Both the position numbers and the translations under genes were made by a program. Positions 19,526-35,518 of a DNA stretch of 37,081 bases are shown here, piece after piece (the stretch's first letter is position 1; each line of letters opens with the position of its first letter). The stretch comes from a virus, in IMG/VR virus record IMGVR_UViG_3300032073_000084, positions 1 through 37,081 of that record; one strand, written 5' to 3'. A model generated the notes under the pieces. It was not told the origin of the DNA. It did not search any database and worked only from the letters and a program-made list of their open reading frames with translations.

Positions 19526-20281
19526 TTAGGAAATTTTTGCAGAACCTACGTCAATTGGTTCTCTTTTCATGTGGTTACCTGATGCAAAGTTTGCACCTTC
19601 TTTTATGTAACCAGTTAGGAATGCTCTTCTGAATCTTTTAGATGTATTTTCTTCAGACCCATGTATTACATTAGAATGTAATAAAGCAACTTGTCCTTTT
19701 CTTAAATACCCATCTATATGTGGAAAATTGTGGTCCTCAGGTAGTACACAAGGTTTTCCTCTTTCATTTCTCCAATTTTTAGGATTTGAACCTGCTCTTA
19801 CTTCATCTACTTGGATAGGTAGTTTTCCTAATCTATGTGAACCTTCTAAATACCAAACAGAACCATTGTTTGGGTCGTGATTATCTAATGCAATTGAAAC
19901 ATTTATTATTTCATTAGATTTACATTGTGTATAAAATATATTTTGATGCATATCTCTACCTAATTGACCTGGTGGTTTAAAATATGCCCAAGTTTGAACA
20001 CCAAAAACTTTTCCATTCATTAAAAATTCAACTGCTTCTATTACTTTAGGGTGTTTCATTAATCCATCAAGTACTTTTGATTGTTTATGTGGATACATAA
20101 ATGGGTCATATTCTCCCCATTCACCTTTTGTATCGTTTACTTGTCTTGTAGTTCTGATTCTTTCTAATTCATCTGCTATACTATTAACTTCAGATTCTTT
20201 TAGTAAGTTTAGGATAGATACTCCTTTGTATCTCCAATCAAAATGTAATTGTTGTTTTTCTAAATCGGTAAGATAATTCAT
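19526..20281 (-). CDS. Phytanoyl-CoA dioxygenase (PhyH)-like 2-oxoglutarate/Fe(II) family protein with altered metal site
   Basis: This 251-residue protein has the PhyH-type double-stranded beta-helix. DNHDPNNGSVWYLEGSHRLG (133-152) is a hallmark segment, and NVIHGSEENTSKRFRRAF carries the distal His207 and the likely 2-oxoglutarate-binding Arg218. The proximal metal motif, normally HxD, reads MHQNIFY (His112-Gln-Asn114), so the Asp ligand is replaced by Asn. Family members hydroxylate or halogenate small molecules; D-to-A/G changes are known in halogenases, while the effect of Asn is unclear. It follows the radical SAM gene by 38 bases, with a TATATTAG-like sequence but no clear -33 box between them. 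The substrate is unknown. Confidence 0.82.
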   Translation of the reverse strand: MNYLTDLEKQQLHFDWRYKGVSILNLLKESEVNSIADELERIRTTRQVNDTKGEWGEYDPFMYPHKQSKVLDGLMKHPKVIEAVEFLMNGKVFGVQTWAYFKPPGQLGRDMHQNIFYTQCKSNEIINVSIALDNHDPNNGSVWYLEGSHRLGKLPIQVDEVRAGSNPKNWRNERGKPCVLPEDHNFPHIDGYLRKGQVALLHSNVIHGSEENTSKRFRRAFLTGYIKEGANFASGNHMKREPIDVGSAKIS

Positions 20282-20319: not shown

Positions 20320-21369
20320 TTAAAATAATGTTTTTTCTACCGCTGGTATTAGATGATTGAAATTGTGTGATACATTTTTAACTTTTACTATTCTATCTAA
20401 TTCGTTAAGAAAATCAGTATGTTTAGGATTTTTTGGATTGGATACATCTTTTAATTCATACTCCTCATTTTCATATGTGCCCCAATTTGTTATGTGATTG
20501 AAAAAAATGTTAACTCTTTTGTTATCTTTCCAATCTAAACTATTAATTAATTGAGAAAAATCAAACATTTCTTTATAATTTGTATCTTGAACAACAAATG
20601 AGAATATATAATGCTCTATATTTGGTATATTAATTATAAAATCAAGATTATCAATTAATTTATCCCATTGTCCACCAATTCTAACTAAGTTTTCATAAGT
20701 TTCTTTTGTGGATGAATCTATTGATATTTCACAAGATTTAACAAATGGATGTATTGGTTTCATTTTTTCCCAAAGATTCTGTGTCCATAAAATACCATTA
20801 GTATGAATATGTATTCTTTCCATCATTGGATACTTTTTAGCGTCAAAGTTAATTAAAAACTGTCTAAATGATTTAGAATAGAATGGGTCTGCAGAACCAC
20901 TAAGATATAACCTTTTTATTGTTTCTGAAATCTCTTCATTTACTTGTCTTAATTTTTCATCCACTCCATCTCTATCTTTACCTAAATAATTTATCAATTC
21001 TAACCTACAAGATGGGCATTGAAGATTACAACTTCTATCAAAACAAAAATTAACCATGTTTATTTTTGATTTAGGTTTAAATCTTTGTAAACTTTCTTTA
21101 TTTTTAGGTACGAATCTGTTATCAATAAATTTGTTTTGTTTAAAACCAGATAAATGTGGACATTGATGTTCATCACAATATTTGTAAGAACCATCTAAAA
21201 TAGATTCTCTTATTTTTTGTGATTTTTTAGAATTAAAGTTTTTCTTGATATTATTTGTTTCATATATATCTTCCTTTAACCAACCTGGGCAACAAAGAAA
21301 CTGTTTATCATCAAAAACTTCTGTATATCCAAAGGGTGTTGTGCATATGTATTTAGATTTATCTATCAT
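20320..21369 (-). CDS. Radical SAM protein with N-terminal auxiliary cysteines
   Basis: This 349-residue protein has the radical SAM cluster motif Cys114-x3-Cys118-x2-Cys121 (SCNLQCPSC), a glycine-rich LYLSGSADPF in the place of GGEP, and a TIM-barrel-like series of strands (HIHTNG, CEISIDSS). Unusually, extra cysteines come before the core: Cys9, Cys26-Cys27, Cys65 and Cys70 in a SPASM-like pattern (CTTPFG...CCPGW...CDEHQCP) that may hold a second Fe-S cluster. Such enzymes often modify peptides or other macromolecules; the substrate is not evident. It overlaps the SGNH-like gene by 11 bases, so the two are probably coupled. Confidence 0.85.
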   Translation of the reverse strand: MIDKSKYICTTPFGYTEVFDDKQFLCCPGWLKEDIYETNNIKKNFNSKKSQKIRESILDGSYKYCDEHQCPHLSGFKQNKFIDNRFVPKNKESLQRFKPKSKINMVNFCFDRSCNLQCPSCRLELINYLGKDRDGVDEKLRQVNEEISETIKRLYLSGSADPFYSKSFRQFLINFDAKKYPMMERIHIHTNGILWTQNLWEKMKPIHPFVKSCEISIDSSTKETYENLVRIGGQWDKLIDNLDFIINIPNIEHYIFSFVVQDTNYKEMFDFSQLINSLDWKDNKRVNIFFNHITNWGTYENEEYELKDVSNPKNPKHTDFLNELDRIVKVKNVSHNFNHLIPAVEKTLF

Positions 21370-27073: not shown

Positions 27074-29557
27074 TTATAATCCATAGGAGTTAACTTTTGT
27101 ACCATTAACTATATTTCTAATTCCACTTGAAACTTTTGCACCATCTAAATAAACTGCAATTTTACCATTTGCTAAATCTTCTCTTAATCCTTTTATTTCA
27201 CCTACAACACCATCTCCATCACTTCCACCTTCTTCTCCACCTCCTCCGAATAAAGAACCTAATCCTGCGGTAATTCCACCTACCATTGTTAAAGCCATCA
27301 GGCCAGGTAGTGCAGCAATACCAGCAATTCCTAATAATCCTAATGAACCTGCCAGTGCAGTTATTCCTGCAGCAAGTGATAGAATTCCAGCTGTCATTGG
27401 TACTATATTGGTAAGAGTATCTTTTACTAAATTTAGAGTTTCAAATGGTATCATTCTTAATCCTATACCAAATGCAGTTAATCCAACTCCCATAATTGTA
27501 AGAGCACCTGCTGCTAACATTAATAGAGGTGATAAAAATCCAAGAGGTGTTACTGCTAATCCAAACATTAATAATTGTTTTCCTAAAGATACAAAATCAA
27601 AGTCTGCAGGTACTTTTGCAATTTCTTGTAATGCCTTTCCAAGAACAAACATAGCTCCCGCAATAACAACCATAGCTAAAGCTCCAACTAAAATAGCAGG
27701 TCCTGCAACTTGCATTATTAATCCAACTGCTGCTAATGAAAGGGTTAATCCAAGAAGTGCTGCTCCTGCAACTGCCAATGTATCAAACCCAATACCTTTA
27801 AACTCTTGTAATGCTTTTCCAAGAACAAACATAGCTCCTGCAATCAATACAAGTGCTGCTGCTCCTTTAACTACATCATTCATTTTTATTTTACTAACAC
27901 TTTTTGTAAGAGCGGAAGGGTCACCTTTAGGTGATGATTTTGGTAATTTTGTTTTAGATGGTGATTTACCACCACCAGCTCCTCCAAACATTCCACCTAC
28001 TTTTTCAAATATTTTATTTTTAAGTTGTTTTGCAGTTCCAGCAACATTGAATCCCATTTGACCAGCCGCAACAGCAGCTGAACCTAATCCTTTTACCATA
28101 TTACCTAATGGTCCTTTGGCAATTGCAGATAATGATTCTTTCATCATATCAAACTGAGATTGTTGTATAGAACCATCAGCGTTTAACTTATCCATATTGG
28201 CTGTCATCTTCCCAAGTTCTTCTACTGAAATACCTAATGCCTTTGCTGCTTCTCTCTTTTGGTAGATGTCCATTTTGTTAAATTCTTCAACACCACCTAA
28301 TTGTTCTATTGCTGATTTAACTGCTGAACCTATCTCACCTTCATATGCTAATCTTCTTGCTTGTTCGAAGTTAATATTTTTTCCTAGTAATGCCCCTAAT
28401 TCAAGTTCTGAGGTTAATGAGTTTTCAATATCTAATAAACCATCAGTAACATTTGTTAAGGATGACATTTCTAAACCTAGTTTCTTTGCCGCAATTGCAG
28501 CCTCAATCATATTTTTTCCACCATCTTTACCATACTCGGCAAACTTTTCAGTATTTGCTGCCAAATCTCCAGCAACTGCAGCAGGAATAACACCATTTGC
28601 GATAGATGCAGATTTAACAAGTGATAACATATCAGCACCTGCGGCTGCTGTTCCATCACCTAATCTAGCGAAAGTACCAACTAATTTTGCTGCTTCTCCA
28701 CCACCTATACCTAAGTTAGTGGCTAATAAGTTTGTTTTAAGTTGTGCACCAAATGTGGCATTTTCAACACCACCCATTTCATTGGCCAATCCTTTGGCTA
28801 CTTGAACTGCATCTTCGAATACGAGTCCTAATACTGTTGCCGATATTGAAGATTCTGTAAAGAATGTTCCTAATTCCTTAGCAGTTTTTCCTAAAGCCTC
28901 TATTGCATATCCAGCTCCAATTAAAGCAGTACCTAATGCACCACCAACAGTACTAGTCAATGTAGAGAATACATCTAATACTCCACCTATTGTACTTTTC
29001 ATTCCCTCCATCACCTTGTGGGTCTTTTCCATTTGGTCTTTTTGATAATCAGTTAGATTGGCATAATTTTCTGCTATACTATTTTGATTTTTTAAGGATT
29101 GGACAACTTTATTATTTCCATGTAATCCTTCTGTAGCAATAGCCATTTCATCATCTCTTAAACCTAGAAGATGTGCTCTCTGTTGTATATCATCTCTTCC
29201 TAATTCAGAAATTTGTCTGTTTATATCTGCTATTTTTAATGCAGCTTTTGCTTGTTTAGAACCTGCAGAAAATGCATCCATTGTTAAGGTTAATCCTTCT
29301 TTTTGACTTTCTTTTAAACCTGCATATGCACCAGATATAGAACCGATTGATTTTTCTGCATCTGCATATGAACCTTGTTGGTCTTGGTTTACTTTTTTAA
29401 GTTCTCTAGCTAGATTTAATATTTCTTTTTTGTGGTCACGAATTTTTTTGTTTCTTATTTCAATAAGTTCATTTTCATTGGCCCTTTCACGAGCTATTGC
29501 ACGCTCAGTTTTGTCAATCTCTTTTAGAATTTGTAATCTATCTCTTTCCTTAGCCAT
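27074..29557 (-). CDS. Tail tape measure protein candidate
   Basis: This 827-residue protein has a charged coiled-coil N-terminus (about 1-60), a helical, Ala/Gly-rich body, and several long hydrophobic Ala/Gly/Leu/Val stretches between 560 and 780 typical of tape measures that insert into the host membrane. IAGAMFVLGKALQE occurs twice, 60 residues apart, and is also a near-perfect DNA repeat (27624-27664 and 27804-27844). The end (GKIAVYLDGAKVSSGIRNIVNG) is a common tape-measure finish. At the usual 0.15 nm per residue the tail would be about 120 nm. It starts after an AAGGGAG site. The large plus-strand ORFs opposite it are antisense shadows. Confidence 0.85.
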   Translation of the reverse strand: MAKERDRLQILKEIDKTERAIARERANENELIEIRNKKIRDHKKEILNLARELKKVNQDQQGSYADAEKSIGSISGAYAGLKESQKEGLTLTMDAFSAGSKQAKAALKIADINRQISELGRDDIQQRAHLLGLRDDEMAIATEGLHGNNKVVQSLKNQNSIAENYANLTDYQKDQMEKTHKVMEGMKSTIGGVLDVFSTLTSTVGGALGTALIGAGYAIEALGKTAKELGTFFTESSISATVLGLVFEDAVQVAKGLANEMGGVENATFGAQLKTNLLATNLGIGGGEAAKLVGTFARLGDGTAAAGADMLSLVKSASIANGVIPAAVAGDLAANTEKFAEYGKDGGKNMIEAAIAAKKLGLEMSSLTNVTDGLLDIENSLTSELELGALLGKNINFEQARRLAYEGEIGSAVKSAIEQLGGVEEFNKMDIYQKREAAKALGISVEELGKMTANMDKLNADGSIQQSQFDMMKESLSAIAKGPLGNMVKGLGSAAVAAGQMGFNVAGTAKQLKNKIFEKVGGMFGGAGGGKSPSKTKLPKSSPKGDPSALTKSVSKIKMNDVVKGAAALVLIAGAMFVLGKALQEFKGIGFDTLAVAGAALLGLTLSLAAVGLIMQVAGPAILVGALAMVVIAGAMFVLGKALQEIAKVPADFDFVSLGKQLLMFGLAVTPLGFLSPLLMLAAGALTIMGVGLTAFGIGLRMIPFETLNLVKDTLTNIVPMTAGILSLAAGITALAGSLGLLGIAGIAALPGLMALTMVGGITAGLGSLFGGGGEEGGSDGDGVVGEIKGLREDLANGKIAVYLDGAKVSSGIRNIVNGTKVNSYGL
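27624..27664. repeat. In-gene repeat, copy 1 (tape measure)
   Basis: This 41-base stretch matches 27804-27844 except for two bases, with a register of exactly 180 bases (60 codons). It encodes the repeated GAMFVLGKALQE segment, so it reflects an internal duplication in the tape measure gene. Confidence 0.8.
27804..27844. repeat. In-gene repeat, copy 2 (tape measure)
   Basis: Second copy of the 41-base repeat, two mismatches from 27624-27664 and in the same reading frame. Confidence 0.8.
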
Positions 29558-29819: not shown

Positions 29820-29848
29820 AAAAAAAGTGAGGAAATTACTTCCTCACT
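29820..29848 (-). terminator. Rho-independent terminator after the gp26-like unit
   Basis: On the minus strand a 9-base-pair stem (AGTGAGGAA / TTCCTCACT, 29826-29834 with 29840-29848) with a 5-base loop is followed by a run of seven T. The stem overlaps the last codons and stop of the 94-residue frame. Confidence 0.85.
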
Positions 29849-30120
29849 CTTACATTTGGTCCTTTAGCTTTCTTAGTAGATTTATCAGCTTCTTGTTTTT
29901 CTTTCTTTTTTGATTCAACTAACTTTTTAAAGTAGAACCTTCTCCAATGGATAGGCATGAAGTAAACATCTTTCCAAGTAAATCCATTACCATAGTTAAC
30001 CATCTCCCAAATTTGATTGTGGAGTTGGATGCTATAGTCATTCGGAAGGGTAAAAAAACCCAATCCCAAAGGGAATATCGAGAGCCTCCGTATCGCCCGT
30101 GATATCTGATGTAAAATCAA
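29836..30120 (-). CDS. Downstream frame of the gp26-like gene, probably expressed by ribosomal frameshift
   Basis: This frame is open from 30120, but its first codons have only a TTG and no convincing ribosome site, and it overlaps the gp26-like gene by 83 bases. Its coding-like part starts near the overlap end: TLPNDYSIQLHNQIWEMVNYGNGFTWKDVYFMPIHWRRFYFKKL, then a Lys-rich tail ending GPNVRVRK. The 'mPi..RRfy.kkl' segment recalls small T4 gp51/tail-assembly proteins. A seven-T run (30052-30058) at the frame switch lets a Phe tRNA re-pair after a +1 slip, giving a 322-residue fusion with the gp26-like protein. Independent initiation at the internal Met40 is an alternative. Confidence 0.65.
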   Translation of the reverse strand: MILHQISRAIRRLSIFPLGLGFFTLPNDYSIQLHNQIWEMVNYGNGFTWKDVYFMPIHWRRFYFKKLVESKKKEKQEADKSTKKAKGPNVRVRK

Positions 30121-30805
30121 ATTTCATATCCATATCTGGACTTATATTTTTAATGAAACTTCTTAATGACCTCGTATCCAAAGCCAATAAACCATTTACT
30201 ACAAATTTGTTAATGAATCCTCTATCACCATTACCATCTACTTCTTGTATCATATACTTTAATCTAGTAGTTACATCAGAACTTACTTCTGATTTACCTT
30301 TTTGTAATCTTTGTATTGCTTGTATTTCTGCAGTGATATCTTTCTCATCTTTGTGAGTTAGTAATCTAAATTTTATTTTTTTCTTAGCTTTTGGTAACTC
30401 ATATTCATATATGTTATCTCTACTAAGAATAGATTCATCTACTTCTTTTGTTTGAATTTTTGCTAAATCAATAGTTGTTCTTTGTTGTTCACCACTAAAT
30501 GGGTCATTGATTTCAACTTCATATTGTGCCCCATATCCTAATATACGAGTTGCTAAAAGGATTGCATTTTTATCACCTATTACGATATCATCGATATTAA
30601 TATCTTTATCAATAACAACTGATTCGAATAGTTTATCAAGAACTACTCCTTTTTTAATTAAATTTTGAGAAGCAAGTATATCTTCTTCTTTTGCCGTCAT
30701 ATACTTGATTTCTACCCTACCATTTGATAATGGATTTGATTCGGGATAAACTTTACCTTTAGATGGTAATTCTATCACCTCTGTTGGAAATTCGTAATTT
30801 GCCAT
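30038..30805 (-). CDS. 26: T4 gp26-like baseplate protein
   Basis: This 255-residue protein matches the T4 baseplate-protein family (gp26). It begins YEFPTEVIELPSKGKVYPESNPLSNGRVEIKYMTAKEEDIL, has LDKLFESVV, then NIDDIVIGDKNAILLATRILGYGAQYEVEI, followed by a helical C-terminal domain with HKDEKDITAEIQAIQ. The 'LPSkGkvYp' start and the 'R..gyG..Y' centre are family features. It is the first gene after the box at 30831 and the terminator of the tube gene. Its end (GIGFFYPSE) coincides with a likely frameshift site that would add a 71-residue extension. The T4-counterpart assignment is fairly good. Confidence 0.8.
   Translation of the reverse strand: MANYEFPTEVIELPSKGKVYPESNPLSNGRVEIKYMTAKEEDILASQNLIKKGVVLDKLFESVVIDKDINIDDIVIGDKNAILLATRILGYGAQYEVEINDPFSGEQQRTTIDLAKIQTKEVDESILSRDNIYEYELPKAKKKIKFRLLTHKDEKDITAEIQAIQRLQKGKSEVSSDVTTRLKYMIQEVDGNGDRGFINKFVVNGLLALDTRSLRSFIKNISPDMDMKFDFTSDITGDTEALDIPFGIGFFYPSE
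30052..30058 (-). other. Putative +1 ribosomal frameshift site (seven-T run)
   Basis: The gp26-like frame reads GGG TTT TTT TAC here, and the downstream frame continues ACC CTT CCG. A +1 slip of the P-site TTT onto the overlapping TTT is fully re-paired. The zero-frame stop follows four codons later (30038-30040). Confidence 0.5.
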
Positions 30806-30913: not shown

Positions 30914-31402
30914 TTAGAATTCTAGTATTGCGTAATCATAAGATAGTGTTAATGTGATTTCAGCCGGGTCATTTGAACTCCAGTCAACATCATTGAACAC
31001 TGCATTATTGATAAATGCACCTTTAAGAGTCCATTGTTCAATTTTATCACCTACAGGTCCTAACATATAAAAGTTAATATCCTTTTTGTAGAAATCAGCA
31101 TATCCATCTCTACCAGTTAGTGATTCATGTGATGTTCTAACCCATTCCATTACAGATTGTGCACCACTTGGTACAATTGGGTCATACATAGTTATTTCAA
31201 CATCTTGCCATTCACCTTTTCCTTTAAGTTTTCTCTTAACATTTATGTGGTCAAGAGTTACTACCTCAAATTGGATTGAAGGTCTGTTGGCTGTTTTTAT
31301 GAGATATGAAGGTACACCATCGATTTCCATGATGAATCTATTTTTCATCTTCGGTTCGAAGTTCGTGTAAAACATATCGTTAAATTCTAATACTTCTGCC
31401 AT
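30914..31402 (-). CDS. 19: Tail tube protein, gp19 type
   Basis: This 162-residue protein matches the T4 gp19 tube family. It starts with FNDMFYTNFEPKMKNRFIMEIDGVPSYLIKTANRPS, includes VKRKLKGKGEWQDVEITMYDPIVPSGAQSVMEWVR and ends with the strand ITLTLSYDYAILEF. The tube is the inner channel of the contractile tail. It lies 55 bases after the sheath gene and is followed by a strong terminator, so sheath and tube can be made at different levels. A GGAGAC ribosome site precedes the ATG, and an ATATTTATT box (31426-31434) is 26 bases upstream. Confidence 0.93.
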   Translation of the reverse strand: MAEVLEFNDMFYTNFEPKMKNRFIMEIDGVPSYLIKTANRPSIQFEVVTLDHINVKRKLKGKGEWQDVEITMYDPIVPSGAQSVMEWVRTSHESLTGRDGYADFYKKDINFYMLGPVGDKIEQWTLKGAFINNAVFNDVDWSSNDPAEITLTLSYDYAILEF

Positions 31403-31457: not shown

Positions 31458-33773
31458 TTACGCCGAGAATGATGCCCCAGTCGGTAGAATGTTGAAATCA
31501 ATTACAATGAATTCAGCAGTTTTCGTTGGTTGTAAGAAAATCTGTCCAGCCAATATATTTCTATCGATTACATCTGGTGTATTGTTTGTTTCATCCATTA
31601 CCACTCTAAATGCATATAACCCTTGTCTTTGTTGTACTCCTTCTAAATACGGTTGTACTGTATTTATGAATCTACTTCTTGTTTGAGCTGTATTTTGTTC
31701 GAACACTAAGTATCTCGAAGTACTTGCAACAAATTTCTTAACTTTAATCAATAATCTACGAACATTGATTCTATCTAAAGCAGATGCCTTATCTTGTAAA
31801 GTTTTTTGTCCGAATGCCACGATTCCTTCTCCTGGAAACTGTGCAATTGGATTAACTTTTCCTTCATACAATGTATCTCTTTCAGCATGTGTTAATCTGT
31901 TTAGTACAGAAACTGCTCCTACAATTCCACCTCTGTTTAACCCAGCAGGTGCAAACCATTCTGCAGCTACTCTATCGTTTGCCGCATATATTCCAGGTAA
32001 TAAAGTTGATGGTGGAACAGCCGTTAATTTATTTGTGTTAGCATCAATTGTTTTAACCCACGGGTAGTAAGTACCTACATAGTTAGAATCAATTGCCTCA
32101 GCCTGTGTTATTGCCTGTCCAATACTATCATCTTGTGCAGATACATCACCGATAAAGAAAGCATCTTGTCTAGCTTCTACCATATCAGTAATTTTATCGA
32201 ACACATAAGAATGTAATCTTCTTACAACACCAGGTGCAGATATCAAGTTGATATCGAAATCATCTGGATTAGATATTGCGTTTATTGCTTTTACATAAGC
32301 AACTGAACCACTTGCAGTTGAACTTGCTAAACTAAATCCTTGTGTGTTTCCAGCAGATATTCCACTTCCTAAGTATGGAGATATTGTTGGTGCAACACCA
32401 TCAAATCCTCCTTGAAATCCTACTGAGAACTGTCTTTTAGCAACATCAATTGCTTTAGTATCAGAATTTGTTGAACCAGTCAACTCATAAGAAAGTTGTT
32501 GGTCAAAAGCAAATACTGTGTTTGAACCAGTTGATGCATTTGTTGTTAGAGGTGCAAGATAGTTAAAGTTATCTTTCTTAACTACTGCAGTTTCTAAATC
32601 GATACCAGCGTAATTTAATTTACTTGATGCCGTATTTGAATCAGATGTTGTTCTAAATTTAACTGCTGATAAATCAGTATCAGTTGTTAATTTTACTGGA
32701 TTTGAATATGCCTCATGACCAAATGGTCCAGCAGTTATTGGGAATCCTTCGTTAACATCTACTCTAATATATTTTGAATTATTTCTATAATCACCAGTAT
32801 CAGTTTGTTTTCCATTAGCATCGATAGATACATTTCTATCTCCAATTACTTTTGAAATATACTGAGGTGATGCAGGGTCTAGGTTAACATTGTTAAATGT
32901 TTCTAATACTGATTTTCTTTTATCAGTATCACCAAATTTTCTAACTGCAAGTGAGAATGTAGCATAATCAGTAGCATTAGAAGAACCAGCTTCTTTTACA
33001 TTGAATATAGAAATTACACATTGTTGATTCGTGTATGTACCATCACCTAAAGTATGGAATCTAAACAAGTTGTGTCTTTGTCCTGATATTTTTTGTGAAA
33101 CGATATATGGAGTAGTAGCATGAGTTACATCGTTTGTAAATAATTGTGCTGGTAGTTGTTCTGCAATTACTTTAGAACCACTATCAGATATATAAGTTCT
33201 TTGGTCATATGATGCTGATTGGAACCAGTTATATGCATATGCCGTTTTTGTTCCATATGGTGATTCTCCAAATACATCTGCAATGTCATTACCTGCAGTG
33301 TACAATACTGAAGAAGATACTTCTCCGAATGAACCACTTATGGTAAATGCCGATGCTGATAGTTGAGAATCTATTGAAGCGGATGATGCTGCAATATTAA
33401 ATCCTACTGATGCATCTGAACCACTTGAATTAAATAGTGTTCCTGCTACAACAGTTCCTCCATCAGAACCGCTAATTTTTAAAGCAATACCATTAGTTTG
33501 AGTATATCCACCAATGTGTCCTACTCTTACAACTGTTACGGTTCCTGCCTCTCTTAAATAATTTTGTACGGTATATCCTGTATAGTATGAACCATCAGGT
33601 GTACCGAAGATTTCATCGAAATCTGATTGTGTGTTTATTACAGTAGGAACGAACGCAGGGCCCTTTTTAGTAGGTCCTATTATTGCTGCTCCTATTTCTC
33701 CAATTCCTTGAGAAAGGAAAGATAGGTCATTCTCTCTTGTAAATACACCAGGTGATACAATTTTTTCTGCCAT
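31458..33773 (-). CDS. 18: Contractile tail sheath protein, gp18 type
   Basis: This 771-residue protein begins VSPGVFTRENDLSFLSQGIGEIGAAIIGPTKKGPAFVPTVINT, the typical sheath N-terminus, then FGTPDGSYYTGYTVQNYLREAGTVTVVRV. The C-terminal domain contains WFAPAGLNRGGIVGAV, the 'INVRRLLIKVKKFVASTSRYLVFEQNTAQTRSRF' region and GLYAFRVVMDETNNTPDVIDRNILAGQIFLQPTKTAEFIVIDFNI, all sheath hallmarks. It is longer than T4 gp18 (659), with the extra length in a variable Ser/Thr/Ala-rich middle that would lie on the outside of the sheath. It has an AGGAG site and an ATACTTATA box 42 bases upstream. Confidence 0.96.
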   Translation of the reverse strand: MAEKIVSPGVFTRENDLSFLSQGIGEIGAAIIGPTKKGPAFVPTVINTQSDFDEIFGTPDGSYYTGYTVQNYLREAGTVTVVRVGHIGGYTQTNGIALKISGSDGGTVVAGTLFNSSGSDASVGFNIAASSASIDSQLSASAFTISGSFGEVSSSVLYTAGNDIADVFGESPYGTKTAYAYNWFQSASYDQRTYISDSGSKVIAEQLPAQLFTNDVTHATTPYIVSQKISGQRHNLFRFHTLGDGTYTNQQCVISIFNVKEAGSSNATDYATFSLAVRKFGDTDKRKSVLETFNNVNLDPASPQYISKVIGDRNVSIDANGKQTDTGDYRNNSKYIRVDVNEGFPITAGPFGHEAYSNPVKLTTDTDLSAVKFRTTSDSNTASSKLNYAGIDLETAVVKKDNFNYLAPLTTNASTGSNTVFAFDQQLSYELTGSTNSDTKAIDVAKRQFSVGFQGGFDGVAPTISPYLGSGISAGNTQGFSLASSTASGSVAYVKAINAISNPDDFDINLISAPGVVRRLHSYVFDKITDMVEARQDAFFIGDVSAQDDSIGQAITQAEAIDSNYVGTYYPWVKTIDANTNKLTAVPPSTLLPGIYAANDRVAAEWFAPAGLNRGGIVGAVSVLNRLTHAERDTLYEGKVNPIAQFPGEGIVAFGQKTLQDKASALDRINVRRLLIKVKKFVASTSRYLVFEQNTAQTRSRFINTVQPYLEGVQQRQGLYAFRVVMDETNNTPDVIDRNILAGQIFLQPTKTAEFIVIDFNILPTGASFSA

Positions 33774-34219: not shown

Positions 34220-35518
34220 CTAAGGAGCATCTGTTGTAAATGATAAAGTAGAGGAGTATGTTCCTGCCAACCCACTTTTTATTGCTCTTACTCTTGCATA
34301 ATATGTAGTTCCTGCGGATAAACTATATCCATCCATTAATTCTGCAGAAGTTGCACTCCATTCTGTTTCATTAGCTACTGTTGAACCGAAGTTTGATACT
34401 GCAGAAACTTGGAAATCATAAGCAGTTGCATTTTCATATGCAGTCCAACTAAGAGTTGGTTGACTCCACGATAAACCTTGTACTGCAGTTGGTGCTGAAG
34501 TATCTGTATGTGAATTACCACCTTTGTTGTGAGTTATATATCCATTTACTAAATAGGTATCTACATCTTCTACATTAATAGATACAATCTCTACACTTTC
34601 TTTAATAAGATTAATAGTATCAACATTAACTTCAATCACTCCATCTTTTACTCCTCCAGCAGCTTTAATTAATCTATCTCCTACCTTTAATCTAAAGATT
34701 TCTTTAAATTTGTATATTTGTTGTTCATTATCCCAAACTAACATTGGATGTTCAGATGTTGCTGTAATTTCTCCATCATTGATGTTATAGTATGATGATG
34801 CAAAAGAATATATAATATCTCTTACTTTTACTTTACAGAACTCACCATGTACATCTCTTGCATTCCATTCAAAGAAATCATCATCTGAATCTAAATTTAA
34901 ATTATTTGGGTTATATCCTAGTAGTTCATCTCCTTCATCTAAATCTCCAACCTCAACTATACTCCCATCCCATTTTGTTACTGGAGAATCTGCAGTTAAA
35001 CATAATGAAGCAGCATTGTTATCATATGAATCTACTACATATACAGTTTTATCTCTGTTTGCATTAAAATTTGTTGCATGACCATTATATGTGTCATCAA
35101 ATTTAACTCTTACAGTATGTGTAACTACTGTTTGTAATTCTGTTTGGGACTCTGAATCACCAACATTTGATAATGCACTTGCAACAAATGCAGCAGTTTC
35201 TCCAGAGTTTGATGATACTGCCATTTTGGCTCCACTTCCAACACTCCATTGGAAATTAGGAGACCTATCTGCAATTGCTCCGGTAAATTTTGAACCAGAA
35301 CCACCAAAGTTTAATCTAAATGTTTCAGTTGTACTTTCAACCACATATGTAAATCCACCAACTGAACCTACACTATCTATTGCGTATTGTGAAAGTTGTA
35401 CTGTTGAACCAGCACTACCATTGATTGCGTTTAAAGAAATACCACTACCTGAACTTGTACCTGTAGCTGTTCCTAAACTTTTTAAACTGAGTGTATCTCC
35501 TGATGATAATGTTGGCAT
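34220..35518 (-). CDS. Tail-associated protein with an internal Hint (intein-like) domain and a C-terminal FN3 domain
   Basis: This 432-residue protein has three parts. Residues 1-170 are Ser/Gly/Thr-rich beta structure opening MPTLSSGDTLSLKSLG, similar to phage tail-fibre or whisker segments. Residues 173-331 are a Hint domain: it opens CLTADSPVTKWDGSIVEVGDLDEGDELLG, has the block B TSEHP with His257, and closes VDTYLVNGYITHN at His330-Asn331. Residues 342-432 are a fibronectin type III domain. At 159 residues the Hint unit has no homing endonuclease. Residue +1 is Lys332, not Cys/Ser/Thr, so ordinary splicing is unlikely; cleavage at either end, as in bacterial intein-like domains, is more plausible. 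It lies 9 bases after a glycosyltransferase gene. A GGAAG site precedes the ATG. Confidence 0.85.
   Translation of the reverse strand: MPTLSSGDTLSLKSLGTATGTSSGSGISLNAINGSAGSTVQLSQYAIDSVGSVGGFTYVVESTTETFRLNFGGSGSKFTGAIADRSPNFQWSVGSGAKMAVSSNSGETAAFVASALSNVGDSESQTELQTVVTHTVRVKFDDTYNGHATNFNANRDKTVYVVDSYDNNAASLCLTADSPVTKWDGSIVEVGDLDEGDELLGYNPNNLNLDSDDDFFEWNARDVHGEFCKVKVRDIIYSFASSYYNINDGEITATSEHPMLVWDNEQQIYKFKEIFRLKVGDRLIKAAGGVKDGVIEVNVDTINLIKESVEIVSINVEDVDTYLVNGYITHNKGGNSHTDTSAPTAVQGLSWSQPTLSWTAYENATAYDFQVSAVSNFGSTVANETEWSATSAELMDGYSLSAGTTYYARVRAIKSGLAGTYSSTLSFTTDAP

Follow-up and report, generated by a model that had tools for sequence, protein, structure and literature searches.

A likely +1 frameshift site in a viral gp26-type gene, a probable tail assembly chaperone, at codons where relatives appear to shift in the opposite direction

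Results

Two overlapping frames between the tail tube and tape measure genes

The window, i.e. the whole 37,081-nucleotide stretch of marine phage DNA that was analyzed (record IMGVR_UViG_3300032073_000084), contains a gene at 30038..30805 (minus strand) whose 255-aa product matches the Pfam family T4_baseplate (PF12322; 37.6 bits against a curated cut-off of 24.5, E 2.5e-9) and phrog_150, labeled 'baseplate hub' (E 2.7e-12). Upstream lie a gp19-like tail tube gene (30914..31402, minus strand) and a tail sheath gene (31458..33773, minus strand), both recognized by profile matches. Downstream follow a 69-aa ORF and the tape measure gene (27074..29557, minus strand), which was assigned from a match to phrog_4372 (E 4e-6), its size and its position. 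One PF12322-type copy was recognized among the scanned genes of the window, the record being a 37-kb fragment, and no tRNA genes were found in the window. A 432-aa protein encoded at 34220-35518 (minus strand) contains a weak HINT/intein-like stretch at about residues 180-335 (...CLTADSPV...YITHNKGG) beside an fn3-like end, both Pfam matches being below the cut-offs. PhyH-type dioxygenase and radical SAM genes (19526-20281 and 20320-21369, minus strand), which are possible auxiliary or modification genes, lie no more than about 10 kb from the tail genes.

Near its 3' end the gene reads GGG TTT TTT TAC CCT TCC GAA TGA in the 0 frame (minus strand). The seven T (30052..30058, minus strand) fall into the codons TTT TTT TAC and form a candidate slip site, where a P-site tRNA-Phe is able to pair again after moving one base 3'. 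The Phe pair is preceded by G (30059, minus strand), a position considered in the junction comparison below, and TGA at 30038..30040 (minus strand) ends the short form. The open +1 frame begins 86 nt ahead of the end of this stop codon; counted from the TTG at 30120 the overlap is 83 nt, as given in the initial annotation, which had likewise described both frames as crossing the T run. Past the shift, the +1 frame encodes an extension of 71 residues (29839..30051, minus strand) up to a stop codon at 29836-29838 (minus strand). A +1 slip on the seven T would yield a predicted 322-residue fusion (...GIGFF-TLPND...), in which four T are read as one Phe. At the composition of the window, one 67-codon open stretch would arise by chance with a P of about 0.007.

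Both in the window and in annotated phages the gene is found between the tail tube and tape measure genes, which is the G/GT position, and it therefore most likely encodes a tail assembly chaperone (TAC; the short form being TAC-N) and not a structural baseplate part. As in G/GT-type genes, a conserved second frame is connected through a slippery sequence close to the 3' end. The likeness to lambda G/GT that had been noted for a T4-type baseplate gene thus holds for the position, while 'T4-type baseplate' is probably a database label only, judging from position, fold and the literature on the T4 family. Short form and extension were modeled separately with AlphaFold. The short-form model (pLDDT 91) matched SP-15 and other T4-like baseplate-hub proteins, and its best PDB chain was the HK97 tail assembly chaperone 2ob9, a weak match (Z 4.7, below 8). 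The extension was modeled as three helices, and no significant structure match was obtained with this model alone.

The +1 arrangement is conserved among relatives

A search with the extension yielded 167 relatives, of which 80 loci were kept, all with the +1 offset. Wider scans detected a +1 extension in all 186 loci with a complete junction (L107 and L139, in which the junction is cut by contig ends, were left out), a regularity at the sequence level that supports the +1 programmed frameshift initially proposed from the window. Neither an in-frame fusion nor separated frames with a start of their own were encountered in the wider clade (these 186 loci). Its members in culture are Bacillus SP-15, Listeria LIS04, Flavobacterium immuto, Microcystis Mel-JY01 and Streptococcus GXN1, and Rhodothermus RM378 is a probable distant member. 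The predicted long-form junction peptide of SP-15 ends ...NSEFFTPDSTTK. The gene was also observed on contigs binned as Flavobacteriales, WOR-3, an alphaproteobacterium and a Woesearchaeota archaeon (L254-L263), some of which are probably phage contigs misbinned in MAGs.

In the closest set, TTTTTTTACCCT is invariant in 44/44 distinct overlap sequences. Because many separate assemblies carry the identical seven T, a sequencing error is excluded; the frame arrangement itself is real and well beyond chance. Pairwise differences in the extension amount to 0.178, 0.145 and 0.400 at codon positions 1, 2 and 3, and at the sequence level the extension evolves as a protein under purifying selection.

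The extension might instead be a separate gene, translated from its own start or by coupling, with the GGAGG at 30085-30089 and a TTG start in the +1 frame. The +1 overlap of the window does contain TTG codons, close relatives retain GGAGG, and the annotation of Mel-JY01 lists a separate overlapping gene. However, 52 of 137 distinct junctions contain no ATG, GTG or TTG inside the +1 overlap, which is evidence against independent initiation and agrees with the earlier remark that the extension lacks a credible start. Many of these junctions have no start over the first 18 codons, yet the residues there are conserved, and GGAGG stays in the close relatives. A separate gene would also leave the invariant Phe codons unexplained, and we regard this explanation as extremely improbable. 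In 19 to 20 distinct junctions the overlap comprises only 23-26 nt, which confines the shift there to the stretch from the codon preceding the Phe pair to the stop.

The same GGAGG (30085..30089, minus strand) ends 26 nt before the T run and is kept in 56/58 distinct close relatives, in which the codon giving its first G encodes several amino acids and always ends in G. At that position it is present in only 6/74 distant members. A distance of 26 nt falls outside the Shine-Dalgarno spacing of prfB or dnaX. As a Shine-Dalgarno stimulator it was rejected in view of its distance and its absence from most distant members. RNA folding gave single-sequence z values of -1.2 to -2.9, and a covarying stimulatory RNA structure was not found across 32 relatives, with only one covarying pair.

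Candidate slip codons of the +1 clade

Of 132 distinct +1 junctions, 129 have TTT as the second codon of the Phe pair, and the base after this codon is T or C in nearly all. TTT TTT TGG C (50) and TTT TTT TAC C (36) are the commonest sites among 103 distinct anchored junctions; rarer ones include TTT TTT CGT, TTT TTT TTC, TTC TTT CGT and TTT CTT TGG. In the close clade TTT251 and CCT253 show no synonymous change (69/69) and are two of only 8 such unchanging columns in 176. Unlike the slip-site pair, Phe codons at other positions of the gene vary freely, e.g. Phe229 with 28 TTT versus 27 TTC in the close clade. The A-site codons vary between members (UGG, UAC, CGU, UUC, CAC), and UUU_CGU is carried by GXN1 and others. 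The second codon is CTT in two immuto-type junctions and CTA in one (LR756508), and slippage in these must therefore use the first TTT or the CTT. In LIS04, AGT comes after the second TTT, so that perfect re-pairing is possible only by the first TTT.

These sites bear on two further explanations. Ribosomes slipping by -2 on the T run, as in phage Mu, would also enter the frame of the extension, and the product would contain an additional Phe (GFFF-TLPND); seven U would permit P-site re-pairing two bases back, and -2 slippage is known in Mu and arteriviruses (PMC5009743). The homologous sites TTC TTT CGT, TTT CTT TGG and TTT CTA TTC, however, re-pair well one base forward and not two back; sites such as TTC TTT CGT therefore argue against a -2 shift, which we consider improbable. 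Alternatively, RNA polymerase might slip on the seven consecutive T found in most members and generate mixed transcripts that lack one U or have gained two. Homologues with only three to six T (TTCTTTC, TTTCTTT, TTTCTAT, TTTTTTC) nevertheless keep the arrangement, and these sites without a long T run argue against polymerase slippage. Together with the conservation of the downstream TAC/TGG CCT, they make it very improbable.

The same Phe pair in a sister clade

In a sister clade (LR756511 type) the extension lies in the -1 frame. The +1-type and -1-type extensions are homologous (E 4e-12), as are the N-terminal parts of the two clades (E 2.7e-48). At the same Phe pair the -1 clade carries NNT TTT TTC, i.e. 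the heptamer T_TTT_TTC, in 44/44 distinct junctions. The classical -1 heptanucleotide X XXY YYZ was not found at the site of the window, where the extension is in the +1 frame and G precedes TTT TTT. T before the Phe pair occurs in 44/44 of the -1 junctions, compared with 21.6 (sd 3.1) expected from codon usage, and in 1/132 of the +1 junctions, where 60.5 (sd 4.9) are expected and the base is non-T in the other 131/132. The Fisher value for this base between +1 and -1 junctions is 7e-41, which overstates independence because the sequences are related. In the +1 clade the residue before the pair is Gly, Asn, Ser, Glu, Asp, Thr, Gln or Arg, with a codon not ending in T except in L163 (IMGVR_UViG_3300039049_000191). 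This sole +1-clade junction with a preceding T reads AAT TTT TTT TGG and, by its sequence, could in principle slip both ways. The sister clade appears to shift the opposite way on these two codons.

In the jumbo phages Atu_ph07 and Paride an unannotated -1 extension follows T_TTT_TTC; no tail tube or tape measure gene is annotated beside the gene in these genomes. A quick tree of 75 proteins needed two direction changes, with weak support at the deep forks.

Discussion

We consider it very probable from the sequence comparisons that this TAC gene is read in two ways, giving a 255-aa short form and, by a +1 slip, a 322-aa long form. Most ribosomes would stop at 30038 and release the short form. 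In a minority, a tRNA-Phe would sit in the P site on TTT while the 0-frame codon, TAC in the window, awaits in the A site; the tRNA would slip one base forward, re-pair perfectly with the next UUU and continue in the +1 frame, yielding the long form with its three-helix C-terminal domain. The sequences directly show how the frames are arranged, that they are conserved, that the extension is under purifying selection, that the slip codons are invariant, and in what order the genes lie; from these we infer the slippage, its rate and product ratio, the Phe codon that slips and a role as chaperone. If the two forms act as lambda gpG/gpGT do, the part common to both would bind the tape measure protein, and the additional domain would bring in tail tube subunits. 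For the influenza +1 site, slippage of tRNA-Phe on a P-site UUU_C is favored, and comparable sites are predicted to form a wider class (Firth et al., 2012; PMC3498833).

For the gp26-type family as a whole, we lean slightly towards a model in which the Phe pair is the recoding site and its neighbors set the direction: T before the pair with TTC as second codon would give -1, non-T before the pair with TTT-pyrimidine would give +1. Lineages would have switched direction while keeping both proteins, and T4 would have swapped the shift for two genes.

Frameshifting TACs are already known. Vladimirov, Gautam and Davidson (2022) reportedly dealt with the TAC genes of T4-like phages and may report part of what appears new here, namely a +1 site of the UUU_Y kind in gp26-type chaperones that are encoded by a single gene and occur in phages of many hosts, and one shared site used in both directions. 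Single-gene gp26 relatives appear to make both forms by frameshifting, +1 or -1 by lineage, at one homologous site; two directions at one site would offer a natural experiment for asking what determines which way ribosomes slip. This also suggests that many 'baseplate hub' annotations are mislabeled chaperones whose long form is absent from databases. UUU_Y would serve as a searchable +1 motif, forward shifts being described by the authors of PRFect as having no known general motif (PMC10885494).

Comparison with known systems

Like the window gene, lambda G/GT lies before the tape measure gene and gives a short and a frameshifted long form near the 3' end. The two are likened by position and arrangement, whereas lambda shifts -1 and the window gene would shift +1 on UUU_Y. 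The lambda genes were reportedly studied by Levin (1993) and by Xu, Hendrix and Duda (2004). Lambda G/GT chaperones have been reviewed, with G/GT-type shifting established in the -1, -2 and +1 directions and T4 named in 2016 as an exception to it among long-tailed phages (PMC5009743).

T4 gp26 and gp51 belong to the same Pfam family as the window gene (PF12322) and are homologous to each other (E 4e-17), gp51 being longer at the C-terminus. T4 encodes a short and a longer protein in separate genes, whereas in the window both products are predicted from one gene; gp51, a distant paralogue, was the sole family member observed to be long in a single frame. The extension and the gp51 C-terminus occupy the same place and have a similar motif order, but the match between them is not significant (E 0.3). 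According to a passage in the PRFect paper that cites Vladimirov et al. (2022), short and longer fused TAC genes replace frameshifting in some T4-like phages (PMC10885494), and gp26 and gp51 would be that pair. For poly-T signals of the -1 type in the TAC-N genes of T4-like phages, the Adele paper cites Vladimirov 2022.

The +1 sense, initially taken as a departure for tail-assembly genes, has precedents in haloarchaeal viruses: HSTV-2 and the HF1 group have TACs with a putative +1 shift at TTT-CGC (PMC5009743; PMC7230728). As in the window, two chaperone frames with a putative +1 join lie between the tail tube and tape measure genes; homology to the HF2 TAC was not detected against single HF2 sequences (hhalign E 0.2 and 0.03). 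Forward re-pairing of a P-site UUU, as proposed here, is also the favored model for UCC_UUU_CGU of influenza A PA-X, an unrelated eukaryotic virus gene (PMC3498833).
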